From Bacteroidota bacterium (GTDB lineage Bacteria > Bacteroidota > Bacteroidia > 2-12-FULL-35-15): a DNA stretch of 64,000 nucleotides. Of the stretch, positions 2,056-28,997 are shown piece by piece. Each line of letters opens with the position of its first letter. The stretch's first letter is position 1. The stretch covers positions 1,179,765 through 1,243,764 of the forward strand of contig JAOQAE010000002.1 in the NCBI GenBank assembly GCA_025963725.1, in the 5' to 3' direction. The position numbers and the translations under genes are program-made. Under the pieces are notes generated by a model. That model worked only from the letters and a program-made list of their open reading frames with translations. It had not been told where the DNA came from and did not search any database.

Positions 2056-3198
2056 CTACCTGCTCACATTGAACATCTGCTTCGCCTGAAGCTGCTCCGC
2101 GCCTGTAACGCTCAGGATGTATGTTCCCTGTGCAAGCTGGGAGATGTCGATGCTCAGGTTATTTTCACCTGCTGAAGCCTTCATTGAAGTAGCCAGTTTC
2201 TTTTTACCCATCATGTCGTACACCTCAACGCTGAACAACCCGGATCCCTTTGAATTGATCACCACGGAAACCGAGCTCACCGCAGGGTTCGGATATACAT
2301 TCGTGATCAGCAGATCGCTTTGTGCAGCCTGCTCGGTGATGCCCACCGGCACACAGCTGTTGGAGCAGGCACAATAGGTGGTGGTAGAAGCAATGGTGCC
2401 GATGTTGCCATCCATTCCGCCTGCAGGATTTCCTGCATCGCAAATATCAACATGCTGCGCAGATGTTCCGATGGTGCCGGAGTTGAAGCTTTGCCCCGTG
2501 ATTGCAAATCCGCCGCAGCTGCTGGTTCCCGGGCCGGAAACGGTTGCCGAATTGAACCAGTCGTGCTGCACCACGGCCATGCATTTTGAAAGCACAATGC
2601 CGGTATTGGAGTTATAAAAATCGTGCACGATCTTCATGTAATTGTTATTGGTGAAGGTTGCGCCATAAGCGTTGTAAAAATCATTGGTCACCGTAAAATT
2701 GCCGTTGTTGGTGAAGGTGCTGTTGTATGCATTCCCAAAATCATTGTTAATGAGCATGGTTCCGTTGTTGATAAACGTGCCAATGGAATCGCCCATAAAA
2801 TTCATCGTGAAGCTGCCGTTATTTGTAGACATCGCGCCATCTGCCGTAGCAAAGCGGATCCCCGTAAGCATCCCGGAGTTGAACAGACCGGAGCCCGCAT
2901 CGATGATCAGGAGGCTGTCTATATCCGCCACGCCATAATTATTAAAGGTTCCGTTCGTGGTCACGGCAATGTTGCTCGAGTTGATCGTTCCCTGGTTGCA
3001 GAGCGTTCCGCCATTCACGAGGATGTCGCCGGTAACGGTCGCCGAACTTGCAATGCAGAGCGTGGTGCCTGCAGGAACAACATGCGCGCTGCCATCCGTT
3101 CCCGTGATGGTAACGGTACAGGTGCCGCATTGCGCAGCGGCTTCGAGGCCAAATGCCATCAGTGCGAGAAAGATGATCTTTTTGTAATTGTTTTTCAT
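2056..3198 (-). CDS. Secreted protein with T9SS type A sorting domain
   Basis: A 380-residue exported protein. Signal peptide at about 1-22 (basic start, hydrophobic stretch, AAAQ). Residues about 30-270 are low-complexity N/T/G-rich strands with repeated FTNNGNF / FNNYG motifs that suggest a beta-solenoid. Residues about 300-380 form a type A sorting domain (VYPNPAVSSV, VYDMMGKK, GTYILSV, final KQMFNVSR). The T9SS would move it across the outer membrane and remove this domain on attachment or release. It follows the CHU_C gene after 19 bp, probably as an operon. Function unknown. Confidence 0.85.
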   Translation of the reverse strand: MKNNYKKIIFLALMAFGLEAAAQCGTCTVTITGTDGSAHVVPAGTTLCIASSATVTGDILVNGGTLCNQGTINSSNIAVTTNGTFNNYGVADIDSLLIIDAGSGLFNSGMLTGIRFATADGAMSTNNGSFTMNFMGDSIGTFINNGTMLINNDFGNAYNSTFTNNGNFTVTNDFYNAYGATFTNNNYMKIVHDFYNSNTGIVLSKCMAVVQHDWFNSATVSGPGTSSCGGFAITGQSFNSGTIGTSAQHVDICDAGNPAGGMDGNIGTIASTTTYCACSNSCVPVGITEQAAQSDLLITNVYPNPAVSSVSVVINSKGSGLFSVEVYDMMGKKKLATSMKASAGENNLSIDISQLAQGTYILSVTGAEQLQAKQMFNVSR

Positions 3199-3217
3199 AT
3201 TGTTTTTATTTGATTGT

Positions 3218-6200
3218 TTACCGGATCAAAGTGACTGAACCTTTCCGTTCAATGAATTCGCCTCTCAATGTTTTAAAGCGCACAAGGTATACATACACGC
3301 CCAGCTCGCTTTTAGTTCCGCCGTGCGTGCCGTCCCAGCCTTCGTTCACATCCGTGGTGGAGAATACTTTCAGGCCCCAGCGGTTGAACACATAAAATTC
3401 ATAATCGGAAATGTTCACAAAGGAAGTAACGGGAATAAATATGTTGTTCACACCCGAGGGCTTAAAGGCATTCGGGATGAACACCTGCGGGTCCTGGTAA
3501 GCTTCCGCAATGTTGGAAAGGCTGTTATCGCTAAAGCCATAGCTGTTGCCCATGCCTTCGAGCGCTTCCACGTAATAGTTGAACACGCCCTGGCCCTGCA
3601 TGAGCATGGAAATATCATCTGTATACGTGTTCGAATCCGTTCCCATGAAAGGTACATTGGCGATGGGCACTGGATCCATCACGCCATCCACTCCCCTGTA
3701 AATATTATACGACATCACGCTTCCCTGCCAGTTCTCATAGTCGTTCCATACAAGCGAATTCGTAAAATCGCTGTGGCTGATCGCCTTCAGCAATATCGTC
3801 CGCCCGATGTTGGTCTGGATACCATCGAACCCGCAGCTGTCCACATTGATCATTTTGTAATAATAGCTGTACTTGTCGGTATGCACATTCGCATCCGTGA
3901 AAACAACCGGCGTGCTGCCCGTTACGGCAACCGTGCCTACATGCGAAAAATTTGCGGAAACGGTATCGTAGGAGCGCATGATCTTGTAGGCCCGTGAAGA
4001 TGCGGCCGTATCCACATGGCAGGTAACGATCACCCTGTCGGGATCGGCAACGCTCACCTTTCTCAGGTATGTGAACAAAGGCGGCACCGGCGCTGCGGAA
4101 TAAAATGAGTACCTGTTGGAAGAAGCGGTTTTGCCGGAAGCATCGAAGGCCTCTACTTTGAAATGGTACGTGAGATTGGGAGGCAGCGGGCCAACCGTGT
4201 AGGTAAGCACCCCGGGAGCGACCGTGCCCACAAGCGTGTAAGGGCCCGCAGCGCCGGTGTTCGACTGGTAGATGCGATAGCCTGCAAGGCCGGTACCGAT
4301 AGCCGGATAGGCATTCCAGCTTAAGACCGCGCTGCGCGCACATACATCGGCTGTTGCAGAAAGATAAATGGTTTTAAAGATGATCCCGAGCGGACTTACA
4401 TTTCCGCAGCTGTCGTAGGCGGTAAGGCGGTACTGCTCGGAAGCATTGCCGGCGGCCGAAAGCAGGTATGTGTAATTAGTGCTGCTTAATCCGTACAGCG
4501 TATCCACCGGGATCCAGAGCCCGCTGTTGAAGATGTACACCACGTAAGCTTCCACATCCGCTGCCGGATTCATGTTCCAGTTAAGCAGCGCATGGTTGCT
4601 GTCGTCTACGCTCAGCGTATCGATCAGGGGCGATGAAGGCACGATCGTATTCAGGAACGTGCTGCCGTCGAAGGAGGAAACCGAAGTGCATCCCGCAGTA
4701 TCGCTCATCTCCACGCGGTAATTGATGTAGCCGTTGCAGATGTAGATGGTATCGATGTACGAGAGGCTGGTTGTGGTTCCCGTTACCGACCATACTCCCG
4801 CGGGGTATTCCTCGTAGATCGTGTATACGCCCGAAGAACTTGCCGGCAGAGGGCTTGCGATGCTGTTCCATGTAAGCACCGCGGTGCCGTTCGCAGGATT
4901 GATCACATTAAGCAGCATGGAATGCACGGTATCGGCGGCAGGCGCCAGCACTTGTCCGAGGCAGCCGGAGCGTGTGGCGATGTAATAATACACCGAAGAT
5001 AGCTGCGCATTGGCGCCCACATGCGTGTAGGTGTCCTGCCCGATGGTAAAGATGCTGTCGAGCAGCGTATACGGGCCTCCCGCTGCCGGAGCAGTGTAGA
5101 TCTGGTAAGAGTTGAATGTGCCTCCCGTGTCTGCCGGGGGTGTCCAGGTTAGCACTACATCGCCATTCGGCTGAACGGCGACACACCGCGGCTGCGGCGA
5201 AGCGACGAGCGGCGGGGCAAGCACAGTGATGGAAACGGTGGAGATCTTTTCGGCGGGAGCCGGACAAAAATCATCCTTTACCTTGAACACGAACGTGTAT
5301 GTATTTGCATTGCTGCTGCAGCCTGCACCCGTTGAAATATGGCTGCAGCTTGTTTGCCAGTTGAAGGTGGTGGATGTATTGGCCGGCGCCGATGCGGGTG
5401 GTGCCGGCGATAAGGTGGCGCAGGGCGGATTGGAGCAGCCTGCCGCCGCATTGGTAAAACCCGCGCCAAACTGGTTCCCGCTGGCTGAAATAGACAAATT
5501 TTGCGGAGTAACGCCGTCGGCAAGCAGGTCGGGATCGCTTGCATTCAGCGTGAAATTCACCACGGTGCCGGCTACAACCGTGTCCTGGTAGCTTGTGTAA
5601 GTAACCGCAGGGCTTGTATTGGATGCGCAGGGCAGCAATACGATCTGCATTTCGCGGTAGATCTCCGCCACCAGCTGCCCGCATTTCCAGGCTTCCACCT
5701 TTACAACCGTCACAAAGCTGCCTTGCGTGTACGATGTGAATGTAATTTCACCTGTTACCGGGTTGATGGTGGCAGGAATGTTCGAAGGGTTCTGCAGTGT
5801 TCCCGGCAAAGGGCTGCTGTAGCTGTAGCCGGAAGTGAACAGCAATGGAAGCGGCTCCGTAGGCGGATTATAGGAAACCGAATAATCGTCAAGCGGCTCT
5901 GCCCATGAATAATTGAGCGAGTCGAGCTCAGGATCGTACGCATTGTGATTGTAGCTGAAGGAGGTGCCGAGACAGATCACGGTGCTTGGCAGCTCGAGGA
6001 ACTTCGGGGATGAATCGAAGCAGGGGCTTGCATTCTGGCCATTGTAATTATACATCACCGCACGCATGGTGTAGCCTTGTGCTGAAGGCGATTGCAGGTT
6101 GGAGATGGAGCCGTTGCGGCAGCAGCCGGTGTAGGTGAACACCCATCCGGCAGGAGGAGGAACGCCGCTTAGTGTTACCAGCCCCGACTGATAAGTGGTT

Positions 6201-25554: not shown

Positions 25555-27306
25555 TTATCTGTTTTTATTCAAAAATTCATCCAGCTGCTTTCGCTGGATC
25601 GCAGGCCTCTCAGCTGCAAAATCTTTCATCTCCTTCACATTCTCTTTCCAGCTGCTGTATGAGCCGATCGCACGCCAGCGGTCGATATGCTCGGGCATGG
25701 CCGGCGCCAGCTCCTTCTCAAATTCATCGATCTTCGCTATCACTTTCTCCTTATTAAAAGTGCTGTCCAGCAAAAAGAGAAACCGCTCTTTAAAGGCTTC
25801 TCTGAATGTGTCGTTCCTGAGCAGTCCGCTGAAGATCACACCGGTGCTGCCCATTTTACGGGCCTTTTCAAGCAGGTCCATGTGTACCGAAGCGCTTCCC
25901 GTGTAGCCAAAGCCCCAGTCGGTATCGTACAGGATCCAGCGCCAGCGGCCGTCTTTCTTTTTTGCCGATGAGGAAGAGTCCGCGACAGGGCTGTTCGCCC
26001 GGTACCGCCAGAACTTCACATTGTTGTTAGGCCAGTCGCTGTTGCAAAAATACACATTTGCGATAACAAAGTCGATGAAGCTCGACACATCTATTTTGCC
26101 AAGCACATACTTATAATTTTCCTCTTCCGACAGATCGCTGTTGCGGATGTGATCAAGCAGCGCCTTAAACTCATCGCCATCGCGCTTCTTTCCGAATGCC
26201 ACAATGCCGCCATGTTCCAGGATCACGATGCTGTCCCTGCCCAGTTTATATTTCGCTGCAAGAAAATCCTCATCGGAGCGCTCCCGGATGTTGTGAATGC
26301 CCCAGTACTCGCCGTTTATAAAAACGATCGCATTCCGGCAGTCCTGCACATCCACACGCGAATCCTTCATTAGCGCCTGCATGAAGGCATCGCGGAACAT
26401 TGTTTTATTCCAGTCGTTCCCGCCGTTCCTTAAAATAAAGGATTTGAATTTGCTTACCGGATTCCCCGGGAACAAAGGATATTCCAGCTGCTCCTGCCCG
26501 TATTTTCCATCAAAGCAGATCCGCAGCGACTTCTGGCTGAATCCTCTCGTCGCATTTCCATTGATCCTCGCTCCTGCATTGCTTTCAAATCCCGGTTTTC
26601 CGTCCGGCTCAAAAAATTCGATGTGCACAGGCCGCTCCGAATTATCGCCGCGCTTTAAATAATTCGAAGGATATTCCCACCAGGCAAGGTCAAGCGGCAG
26701 CTTCTTACGGATGTAATCCCGCTTGTCCTCATAATTCTTGCCCAATACATAAATGCCTTTCGCGTAGCCGAAAAAATCATCCGGCTCAACGGTGAGCGCG
26801 ATCACGGGAAGCGTATAGCGGTTGCCTGCCTTCTCATCCACAAAGAAAGTACGGATCAGCTCACCGCTTTTTTTATTATCGTCGCTTACCGAAATTGCAC
26901 GGAGCACCGTTCCTTTGAAAACATCGCCAAGCGGCGGGGTCCAGCGGGCAGAGGTCGGGATCGCCGAATATACCGCGGGATCATTTGTACGGTTTTGGAT
27001 CAGGATCGGCTTTTCGTACACAGCGGAACGCAATGTAGGCATGGAGCCGTCGAGCGTGTAATAGATCTTCGAGGAAGCCGGCGGCAGCAGGGAAAGTGAA
27101 AATGCATCTGCATAAAACCCTCCTTTCACAGGGCATTCAGGAGCCTGCAGGCTTTGGTCGTATTTCAGCTCCGGATATTCTTTACGGTTCTCACCGGAAT
27201 AAGAGAGGCTGAGCACAAATGAAACGATCGCGGCAAGCAGCACGAGCACAGCCGCGAGCTTTGCCTGCGGGGATGTTTTGTGGGTGGTTGTTTTGATTGG
27301 TTTCAT
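25555..27306 (-). CDS. CotH kinase family protein with chitobiase-like domain
   Basis: A 583-residue protein with one N-terminal membrane helix (about 14-35) and a periplasmic body. Residues about 65-130 match a CHB_HEX / chitobiase-type beta-sandwich (KIYYTLDGSMPTLRSAVYEKPI). The CotH domain follows from about 225 (RINGNATRGFSQKSLRI, RNGGNDWNKTMFRDAFMQAL, NGEYWGIHNIRERSDEDFL, ILYDTDWGFG), with D/N residues at the expected nucleotide-metal positions. It is probably a secreted protein kinase. Upstream lies the repeat-flanked GxxExxY insert, beginning 14 bp from the ATG. It leads the tight CotH/polymerase/CotH run. Confidence 0.88.
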   Translation of the reverse strand: MKPIKTTTHKTSPQAKLAAVLVLLAAIVSFVLSLSYSGENRKEYPELKYDQSLQAPECPVKGGFYADAFSLSLLPPASSKIYYTLDGSMPTLRSAVYEKPILIQNRTNDPAVYSAIPTSARWTPPLGDVFKGTVLRAISVSDDNKKSGELIRTFFVDEKAGNRYTLPVIALTVEPDDFFGYAKGIYVLGKNYEDKRDYIRKKLPLDLAWWEYPSNYLKRGDNSERPVHIEFFEPDGKPGFESNAGARINGNATRGFSQKSLRICFDGKYGQEQLEYPLFPGNPVSKFKSFILRNGGNDWNKTMFRDAFMQALMKDSRVDVQDCRNAIVFINGEYWGIHNIRERSDEDFLAAKYKLGRDSIVILEHGGIVAFGKKRDGDEFKALLDHIRNSDLSEEENYKYVLGKIDVSSFIDFVIANVYFCNSDWPNNNVKFWRYRANSPVADSSSSAKKKDGRWRWILYDTDWGFGYTGSASVHMDLLEKARKMGSTGVIFSGLLRNDTFREAFKERFLFLLDSTFNKEKVIAKIDEFEKELAPAMPEHIDRWRAIGSYSSWKENVKEMKDFAAERPAIQRKQLDEFLNKNR

Positions 27307-27320
27307 GTTGGTGTTATTTC

Positions 27321-27640
27321 AACCGCAAAGAACGCAAAGCTGAGCGCAGAGAACGCAAAGCTAAGGACGGCTTACAGTTGCTGTTTTTTCCATTGTTTTT
27401 ATTTTAACCGCAAAGAGCGCAAAGCTGGGCGCAGAGAACGCAAAGCTAAGGTTGATTTACAGTTGTTGTTCTTTCATTGTTTTTATTTTAACCGCAAAGA
27501 GCGCAAAGCTGGGCGCAGAGAACGCAAAGCTAAGGCCGGTTTACAGTTGTTGGTTTTTCATTGTTTTTATTTTAACCGCAAAGAGTGCAAAGCTGGGCGC
27601 AGAGAACGCAAAGCAGGGTGCAGGGAATACGAAGTTAAAG
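27321..27640 (+). repeat. Left tandem array, 84-85 bp period, about 3.8 copies
   Basis: Units begin with AACCGCAAAG at 27321, 27406, 27490 and 27574. Each unit holds four CGCAAAG-like heptamers (one as CGCAGAG) in its first 47 bp, then a T-rich stretch with TTACAGTTGTTG and CATTGTTTTTATTTT. The last unit decays into the 3' end of the GxxExxY gene. Three units also contain CAAAGCTA (27356, 27441, 27525), the complement of a TAnnTTTG promoter box pointing towards the CotH gene, though without a spaced TTG. This is all that lies between the GxxExxY and CotH genes. Confidence 0.92.
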
Positions 27641-28012
27641 TCCGTTTACTACTCTCTTTATACCGTCCTTTAAACGGGCTACATTAAAGTTGATCAGTAG
27701 CCCTAATTTAAAATTGCCCAGCTTTAAATATGTTAGTGTTTGTGCAAGATGAACATCATTTAAAGCTTCCACGCTTTTAAGCTCTATCACTAATTTGTTC
27801 TCTATCAGTAAATCCAGCCTGTAACCACAGTCTAATCGTACTTCCTCAAATACCAACGGCATTGGCTTTTCCTTTTCAACCCAAATACCTGCCTTACCTA
27901 TTTTGTAATACAAGCATTCCTTGTATGCGCTTTCAAGTAAACCCGGCCCAAGCGCGTTGTGCACTTCCATTCCCAAACCGATGATTTTATTTGATAGTTC
28001 ATTTTCTGTCAT
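27635..28012 (-). CDS. GxxExxY family protein (PD-(D/E)XK nuclease-like)
   Basis: A 125-residue cytoplasmic protein. The family motif is G24-x2-E27-x2-Y30 in GPGLLESAY. A nuclease-like core follows: GYRLDLLIENKLVIELKSVEAL gives D67 and the E77-x-K79 pair of the PD-(D/E)XK fold. The rest (LAQTLTYLKLGNFKLGLLINFN) is typical of the family. DNA binding or cleavage is inferred from the fold; no biochemical function is known to me. The gene is framed by inverted CGCAAAG arrays and lies inside a polysaccharide operon to which it seems unrelated. Its 3' end merges with the left array. Confidence 0.9.
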   Translation of the reverse strand: MTENELSNKIIGLGMEVHNALGPGLLESAYKECLYYKIGKAGIWVEKEKPMPLVFEEVRLDCGYRLDLLIENKLVIELKSVEALNDVHLAQTLTYLKLGNFKLGLLINFNVARLKDGIKRVVNGL

Positions 28013-28047
28013 AATTGTTTTTCAAACAAACTTTTACTTTTTCTTTA

Positions 28048-28286
28048 CTTTGCGCCTTCTTTGCGAAAAAGCTTGACGACCTTTGCGGTTAAACACCCAT
28101 ATAACTTTGCACCTTCTTTGCGAAAAACCTTCGCCCTTTGCGGTTAAAAACCCACAGCTTTGCGTTCTTTACGAAAAACCTTTGCGTCCTTTGCGGTTAA
28201 ACACCCCGACAGCTCTGCGTTCTTTGCGAAAACACTTTGCGCTCTTTGCGGTTACACATCCAAACACATTTGCCCCCTTTGCGGTT
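28048..28286 (-). repeat. Right tandem array, 53-57 bp period, about 4.5 copies
   Basis: Units begin with CTTTGCG or near matches at 28048, 28105, 28158, 28213 and 28266 and end with CTTTGCGGTTAAA (28081, 28136, 28189, 28244, 28277). It uses the same heptamer as the left array, inverted, with a different period and linkers (AAACACCCA). Copies are diverged by a few bases, so the array is not recent or is under weak selection. Confidence 0.92.
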
Positions 28287-28301
28287 AAAGAACGTACGTA
28301 G

Positions 28302-28997
28302 CTATAAAAACAACCTCTCCAAACCCGTCAGATACTTCGAATTTTTTGTCATCATAAACGGGAACAAGGCGCCAATCTCTTTCGCCTCCTGCTCCAGCGC
28401 GGAATCATATTTTAATTCAAGCACTGTTGCGTTACGGTCAAGCGACTTATTTGTAAATGTATTGCTGTCGTAACTGATCCTGTAATATGATAACTGGTGA
28501 TCGATCGTGATCCGGAAGTTCTTATCTGCCGACATAAAATATCTCCGTGTGTAGCTGTTCAGCAGCGCCGGCTTGAGTGACAGCAGCTCGTCCTTCACCT
28601 GTTGCGGTATGTCACTTCCGTTGATGGCATTGAGGATCTGGCGCTTGTCAAAATGCTCATCCAGCGTAAAAGGCCGGAGCGCATAGGAATCCTTTTTTCC
28701 AAGCAATCCCTTTTTGATCTTATATTCAAGAACGGGCTGTGCGATCATTCCAAAGAGCCCGTCATACCAACGGATCCGCACTTTGAGCCGCTCCTGCGAG
28801 CCTTCCACATTGTCGTAATAATAGCTAAAGCCAAGCGTGTCGAAGTAAATGTTGTTCACCGTACGCTGGTGGTAGATCTCGGAAAAGCAGGCGGGATGAA
28901 ATTTGATCATTTGCTCAACATCCCTGTGGGAATAGCCGGTGATCAGGAATTTACGTTCATAACGCAAGGGCTCCGCTTGTTCCGTTGAATGAGGCAT
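28302..28997 (-). CDS. VTC domain protein (polyphosphate polymerase domain)
   Basis: A 231-residue protein made almost entirely of a VTC domain, the tunnel fold that in yeast Vtc4 makes polyphosphate from ATP. Basic and acidic tunnel residues are visible: RYERKF at 12-17, KVRIRWY, LEYKIKKG, TRRYF, FRITIDHQLSY, VLELKY and the final KNSKYLTGLERLF. No membrane helix, so cytoplasmic; the neighbouring DUF4956 membrane protein (20 bp upstream) is its usual partner. VTC, DUF4956 and CotH genes commonly cluster. Whether it makes polyphosphate here is inferred. Confidence 0.9.
   Translation of the reverse strand: MPHSTEQAEPLRYERKFLITGYSHRDVEQMIKFHPACFSEIYHQRTVNNIYFDTLGFSYYYDNVEGSQERLKVRIRWYDGLFGMIAQPVLEYKIKKGLLGKKDSYALRPFTLDEHFDKRQILNAINGSDIPQQVKDELLSLKPALLNSYTRRYFMSADKNFRITIDHQLSYYRISYDSNTFTNKSLDRNATVLELKYDSALEQEAKEIGALFPFMMTKNSKYLTGLERLFL

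Follow-up and report, generated by a model that had tools for sequence, protein, structure and literature searches.

The window analyzed here, a stretch of 64,000 nucleotides from a Bacteroidota genome, contains a 966-bp segment (27321-28286) in which a short gene of the GxxExxY family lies between two arrays of the heptamer CGCAAAG, the whole being placed between two genes of an apparent operon. The locus raises the question of whether gene and repeats merely adjoin one another, or whether they form a single element, and if so, of what kind. A sequence-only reading of the window had proposed that protein and repeats are one unit, inserted into the operon, being either a selfish repeat that the nuclease assists or a repeat that the protein maintains and reads.

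Layout of the window element

The whole element spans ~27318..28289 on the minus strand. It is set between a VTC-domain gene (28302..28997, minus strand, stop at 28302), its co-directional upstream host neighbor, and a CotH-type kinase gene (25555..27306, minus strand, start at 27306), its downstream host neighbor. From the CotH side inward, it consists of an end array 3' of the GxxExxY gene (27318..27627, heptamer on the plus strand; 4 tandem copies of 84-85 bp, spaced 85/84/84), the GxxExxY gene itself (27635..28012, minus strand; 125 aa, a predicted PD-(D/E)XK nuclease of the RecB/Cas4-like type), and an end array 5' of the gene (28046..28289, heptamer on the minus strand; 4 tandem copies of 53-55 bp, spaced 55/53/55, plus one partial copy). 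Each copy in the left array bears four heptamer sites, arranged as CGCAAAG NN CGCAAAG .. CGCAGAG NN CGCAAAG. Since the CGCAAAG of both arrays points to the gene from either side, the arrays are mutually inverted, and the outermost borders of the element are TTCAACCGCAAAG and CTTTGCGGTTAAA. Exact CGCAAAG sites were concentrated in the segment, which holds 23 of the 31 found in the window (11 on the plus strand at left, 12 on the minus strand at right), compared to chance expectations of 16.5 for the whole window and ~0.25 for the segment.

Re-measuring the arrays confirmed the coordinates, ends, periods and opposite heptamer orientation described in the sequence-only reading, together with its claim that excision of 27321-28286 would leave 29 bp between the two host genes (14 + 15 bp between the CotH start and the VTC stop). 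Two points required adjustment. CGCAAAG arrays do surround the gene, but CGCAAAG proved to be the word of the window protein's clade and not of the family as a whole. Likewise, the long array ends are real at this locus, whereas the usual copies carry one short end per side. Among the eight GxxExxY copies in the genome of the window (G000), only the window copy displays tandem array amplification. Since most relatives have one short end with ~2-4 heptamers per side, we regard the amplified tandem ends of the window element as a local elaboration.

The GxxExxY protein

The window protein matched PF13366 (E=5.5e-40, 136.8 bits; cut-off 22) and TIGR04256 (E=3.8e-42, 143.3 bits; cut-off 35). The element contains this single gene, which matched only these two models, with neither an HUH Y1 domain nor a DDE/DDD transposase detected. 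Across a set of 284 distinct GxxExxY genes, the signature G24-x2-E27-x2-Y30 was 99-100% conserved, as were individually E27, Y30, D67, E77 and K79, with Q91 and Y95 conserved at 96%. The D-ExK active site and QxxxY motif of PD-(D/E)XK RecB/Cas4-like nucleases are present. Copies in one genome shared a median of 38% identity (best 79%). The dN/dS ratio among close relatives was ~0.07 which, taken together with the conserved residues, indicates that the active site is under purifying selection.

The best solved structural relative of an AlphaFold2 model of the window protein (pLDDT 96) was the Cas4 protein SSO0001 (PDB 4ic1; Z 9.9, 102 residues, rmsd 4.5). Another Cas4, Hjc and various restriction-fold nucleases followed at Z ~7, a range where matches may reflect a common arrangement alone. 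Foldseek ranked lambda exonuclease high, with no match below E=0.001, and a search of solved structures by sequence returned no match. Neither the PADLOC defense models (only PDC-M36A, at E=0.028) nor PHROGs gave a significant match. The predicted fold, D-ExK site and Q-x3-Y motif are shared with Cas4/RecB-family nucleases, such as SSO0001 (PDB 4ic1) and lambda exonuclease. In contrast to Cas4 proper, with its four conserved iron-sulfur cysteines, the 125-aa GxxExxY protein lacks them, as there was no conserved cysteine column in the 284 sequences; it is associated instead with heptamer repeats, and has no cas neighbors at the window locus, where the neighboring genes encode VTC, CotH and DUF4956 proteins and neither cas1 nor cas2 is found (this locus only). 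Based on the structural model, the protein is predicted to be a minimal RecB/Cas4-like nuclease with a Q-x3-Y motif and without conserved cysteines.

GxxExxY domains were also seen within larger reading frames. In three genomes of one genus (L318, L322 and G095:C22:338274-338612), the domain lies inside an 883-aa frame, placed in L318 in-frame at the N-terminus of a RecQ-type helicase. A similar in-frame fusion to an amidohydrolase gene was observed in L201. These frames are possible element-to-gene fusions.

Inverted ends as a property of GxxExxY genes

We scored inverted ends for the 284 genes by local alignment of the upstream 250 bp with the reverse complement of the downstream 250 bp. The median score for a gene's own flanks was 35, compared to null medians that were all 18, irrespective of whether the partner flank came from another copy in the same genome (642 pairs), from other genomes or from dinucleotide shuffles. 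Scores of at least 30 were obtained for 64% of own flanks vs 1.7% for another copy of the same genome, and 225 of the 284 genes outscored all 20 of their own shuffles; ~1/5 of GxxExxY genes were without significant inverted ends. As a control, we scored 289 ORFs that accompany the GxxExxY genes within the 10-kb loci; a score of at least 30 was reached by 3.5% of them, compared to 59% of the GxxExxY genes there. Repeats in direct orientation round the GxxExxY gene were much less frequent than inverted ones. Since own flanks match while those of neighboring ORFs and of other copies do not, the ends belong to the gene and are specific to each copy. Thus, GxxExxY genes are enriched between inverted heptamer ends relative to shuffles, same-genome copies and neighboring ORFs, an association on which the sequence-only reading had made its proposal of a unit depend.

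Typical ends contain ~2-4 heptamers per side at a spacing of 8-10 nt, 9 being the commonest, and the heptamers have the same direction within one end and are inverted between the two ends. L142, for example, carries TTTAACCGCAAAGGGCGCTAAGAAGACGCAAAGATCGCAGAGG on one side, and almost the same sequence inverted on the other. On inspection by eye, single ends were not palindromic. The words are short and partly A-rich, as would be expected of an artefact or of chance low-complexity repeats. However, this explanation is rejected by the composition-preserving shuffles, the same-genome swaps and the neighboring-ORF control, as well as by the reversed-pattern control discussed below, and we assign it a negligible probability.

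Occupied and empty junctions

The VTC and CotH genes are adjacent throughout the genus. The distance from the VTC stop to the CotH start in 11 congeners ranges from an overlap to ~30 bp, and the spacer contains neither the gene nor heptamers. A segment present in all close relatives had been named in the sequence-only reading as the observation that would speak against a unit; instead, the junction is closed in these 11 congeners. In G018, the closest genome by sequence, the VTC/CotH spacer is 187 bp long and contains one isolated end there, CTTTGCGCCTTTGCGGTTAA, perhaps what is left of an element, perhaps a single end in its own right. The longer VTC/CotH spacer of L115 is composed of other sequence. 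The spacer of an aldehyde dehydrogenase gene pair (ALDH/ALDH) is without any GxxExxY gene in 22 congeners and holds elements in 4 genomes, with CGCAAAG-type ends in G032 and G034, and CACAGAT-type ends in G000 and G012. Since different word types are found in this one spacer, elements entered it at least twice. Presence/absence polymorphism was observed at three junctions. The empty sites were 72-84% identical, too diverged to set the junctions to the base, and no target-site duplication was identified at them; no transposition event was caught in the genome comparisons. Taken together, these alignments of related genomes show that the element was inserted at once-empty junctions.

PD-(D/E)XK homing enzymes exist, and insertion exactly between conserved genes would also be expected of a nuclease that cuts one cognate empty site and is then copied in by allelic repair. 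However, the eight copies of G000 are at unrelated junctions with no shared target, and homing has no call for multi-copy inverted heptamer ends or for gene-less doublets. We consider a homing-endonuclease-like origin very improbable.

The ALDH/ALDH spacer in L377, L384, L385, L397, L408 and L410 contains another palindromic intergenic repeat, ~CCCTGTCAGGGTTTCAAACCCTGACAGGG. This repeat of several congeners probably represents a separate REP-like family.

Heptamer type and protein phylogeny

Each copy carries its own type of word, and the types seen included CGCAAAG, CACAGAG, CACAGAT/CACGGAT, ACGAAT and others. All eight PF13366 matches in G000 were flanked by short inverted repeats, with words that differed from one another (CACAGAT/CACGGAT, NCGGAT, CGCAAAG, CACAGAG/CGGAG, CGCAGAT, ACGAAT, CACAGAT and CACGGAG/CACAGAG). 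On a tree of 181 proteins, three broad word classes (AAG/GAG, GAT and GAAT) required 8 changes, compared to 58 (minimum 52) with shuffled labels and 46.7 (minimum 37) with within-genome shuffling. Likewise, when a gene was compared with a multi-copy genome of another group, its ends tended to be matched best at the nearest protein (mean rank 0.306, compared to a null of 0.498, sd 0.024, from permuting ends among copies within genomes), these within-genome permutations controlling for composition and sampling, and for phylogenetic dependence only in part. The finer word class was predicted in 90% of cases when only the five nearest proteins from other genomes were used, vs a 43% baseline; as simple rules were used to assign the word classes, and near-identical relatives across species are not independent, the strength of the association is somewhat overstated by such figures. 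Covariation of heptamer and protein clade, which the sequence-only reading had suggested as a check, was thus strongly positive by all three measures, and demonstrates a cognate pairing of word and protein.

Joint absence at empty junctions, inverted-end enrichment and covariation of word with clade together support the earlier proposal of one unit. Within the genomes compared, these findings show that the protein and its two heptamer ends behave as such a unit. Residues at positions 32, 87, 90, 94, 98, 110, 111 and 113 differ between heptamer classes, a difference confounded by phylogeny; that they might bear on word choice is only a lead.

Gene-less doublets and single ends

Inverted doublets without a gene, whose loops range from a few bases to some tens, were found in L346, L352, L353 and L354, and single ends without a gene in L119, L120 and L133. 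The gene-less copies sit in intergenic spacers, with doublet ends a few to ~100 bp apart. A doublet adjoining an aldehyde dehydrogenase gene in G000 is missing at that junction in G009, G023, G028 and G024, and G032 has a different, larger doublet there. Dispersed exact pair sites reached as many as 46 per genome for CRCAAAGNNCRCAAAG, 29 for CRCAGATNNCRCAGAT and 43 for ACGAATAACGAAT among 36 congeners, compared to 0-3, 0 and 0-7 per genome, respectively, for the reversed control pattern. Counts of gene-less motifs were higher where the matching protein class was present (two-way-centered permutation p=0.025), a link that is modest to weak at the genome level, with some off-diagonal pairs also significant. 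These counts and alignments show that the element has gene-less relatives and that its words are dispersed.

If another agent, such as a RAYT, an IS or replication slippage, spread the heptamers, GxxExxY genes might simply ride between them as passengers. Many genomes of the genus also carry Y1_Tnp (RAYT/IS200-like) genes, and the tandem amplification in the window resembles slippage or unequal recombination, both of which fit this explanation. In contrast, it does not account for our findings that word type goes with GxxExxY phylogeny even in unrelated genomes, and that other ORFs are not found between such ends. Moreover, G010, G028 and G031 have no Y1_Tnp match yet contain dispersed heptamer pairs, and G032, the genome richest in AAG and GAAT pairs, has two weak Y1_Tnp matches only. 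Since heptamers also occur in genomes without a Y1_Tnp match, RAYTs are not needed, and we dropped the RAYT as spreader of the heptamers. The passenger explanation as a whole is improbable in our estimation.

An end subtype with three heptamers, TTTCTCGCAAAGGCGCAAAGNNCGCAAAG, was found in L123, L129-L131, L134 and L135. In the G018 element L160 the ends are similar, and the subtype may be that of another protein clade. In G000, loci L123, L131, L134, L135, L138 and L349 share another dispersed repeat, whose core is TTTCGAGT..TTTCGGGAAG..TATCGAGAA and which often adjoins single heptamer ends.

Relation to known repeat systems

We found no published description of a GxxExxY-heptamer system in open-access text (preprints and most subscription papers lay outside the search), and a literature search on the words themselves gave primer-type matches only. 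The passage of PMC8934634 that concerns GxxExxY treats reverse-transcriptase neighbors, and that passage has nothing on repeats. Heptamer direct repeats of TAACTGA are described in Beggiatoaceae, Cyanobacteria and five Bacteroidetes, with a proposed role in translational regulation (PMC4679880). These are likewise intergenic and patchily distributed, and close relatives of some Bacteroidetes lack them at the corresponding junction. Unlike the ends of GxxExxY genes, they consist of a directly abutting single word, with no associated nuclease reported.

REPtrons (RAYT/TnpA_REP with REP/REPIN; PMC3116915, PMC8266576) resemble the GxxExxY element in having a gene between inverted repeats, inverted doublets (compare REPINs) and singlets that lack the gene in intergenic space, a repeat sequence that co-evolves with the protein, occasional tandem copies, and gene copies that are not bursty and are rare on plasmids. 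They differ in that RAYT is an HUH Y1 transposase, whereas the GxxExxY protein is a predicted PD-(D/E)XK RecB/Cas4-like nuclease; in that REP is a single GTAG-led hairpin, whereas GxxExxY ends are a row of direct heptamers at 8-10 nt spacing; and in that several divergent GxxExxY systems with different words coexist in one genome. Since it has no HUH domain, and a direct heptamer row with no GTAG-led hairpin, the GxxExxY element is not a member of the REPtrons, although it is organized like one. IS elements and MITEs likewise have inverted repeats at their termini, occur in autonomous forms and in forms that have lost the gene, and are polymorphic in insertion, but the GxxExxY element has no DDE/DDD or HUH transposase, and there are no near-identical copies within a genome.

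We know of no repeat-spreading system built on a lone PD-(D/E)XK enzyme, and for this reason judge the class to be categorically new; if classed by organization and not by enzyme, the system falls in the REPtron kind as a new form. In either case, this class of short mobile elements is apparently undescribed. Our preferred reading, which we hold to be somewhat probable, is that of a REPtron-like class of mobile repeat based on a lone PD-(D/E)XK nuclease, with the order heptamer end, GxxExxY gene, inverted end. The nuclease would recognize its own heptamers, probably with several protomers lined up on sites that recur every 9 bp, and would cut or process the inverted ends, after which host repair or replication would occasionally copy or move the intervening piece, with or without a gene, into a new intergenic spacer. 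We infer that the GxxExxY protein binds and cleaves heptamers, and that it is the cause of their spread. No strand-transfer activity is known for the lone nuclease, which counts against this reading. If the nuclease moves the repeats, it would represent a third kind of chemistry among known repeat-spreading systems. Pairing with the words gives GxxExxY, a very common orphan family, a testable function, and the clade-specific words provide a natural specificity series for how a minimal nuclease reads rows of 7-bp sites. Such a system would also explain a large part of the short heptamer repeats in the intergenic DNA of these genomes, and some of the junk small ORFs that these repeats encode.

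Distribution and genomic context

GxxExxY genes were present in all 36 congeners and in 39 of 80 sampled Bacteroidota, often at 4-12 copies each. They were found in none of 50,697 phage records, in 8 of 72,556 plasmids and at 3 loci of IMG/VR. Of 274 genes, 223 were co-directional with both neighbors and 6 were opposed to both. Such an orientation bias suggests that selection favors read-through expression or acts against antisense insertion, and could mean that retention rather than insertion shapes the pattern. Since within-genome copies are divergent, there have been no recent bursts, and in its behavior the GxxExxY gene is closer to a resident gene than to an active IS, as is also the case for RAYTs (PMC8266576).

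These findings lend weight to the main rival of our preferred reading, an autoregulated resident nuclease, in which the ends are operators or an mRNA stem of a rarely moving housekeeping or defense gene, and the copies scattered elsewhere are further sites bound by this protein, much as for a nucleoid, repair or replication-fork factor. Strong purifying selection (dN/dS ~0.07), the diverged copies within genomes, co-directional operonic placement (223 of 274) and near absence from phage (0/50,697) and plasmid (8/72,556) records are each consistent with it. A resident nuclease with scattered sites explains conservation. It does not explain why the gene and its two ends come and go together at junctions that are otherwise conserved, or why different types are present in one spacer in different species. 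Moreover, complete inverted doublets are found among the scattered sites, and these are insertion polymorphisms in their own right. Operators also leave unexplained why the two ends of one copy are more alike than either is to ends elsewhere in the genome. We therefore view the resident nuclease as unlikely, albeit worth serious consideration, and retain the mobile repeat as the preferred reading.

Evidence outside Bacteroidota consists of a few loci in Gemmatimonadota, Fusobacteriota, Spirochaetota, Pseudomonadota and Planctomycetota. Copies with matching ends were seen in Gemmatimonadota, as they were in Bacteroides. In a Sphingomonas fatty-acid operon, a GxxExxY gene lies between fabD and fabG, with an inverted score that was not significant, and a Treponema plasmid copy displayed a short inverted score only. 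We are evenly divided on the broader proposal of a major mobile repeat class, in which a stand-alone RecB/Cas4-like nuclease, with no HUH, DDE, RT or recombinase partner, would read a clade-specific heptamer code at inverted ends with multiple sites and spread itself, together with gene-less doublets, through intergenic spacers in several phyla. In L369, an IMG/VR contig classed as viral, a GxxExxY element with a TTGATT-type word (3001-3360) lies just 5' of an HsdS-like gene.
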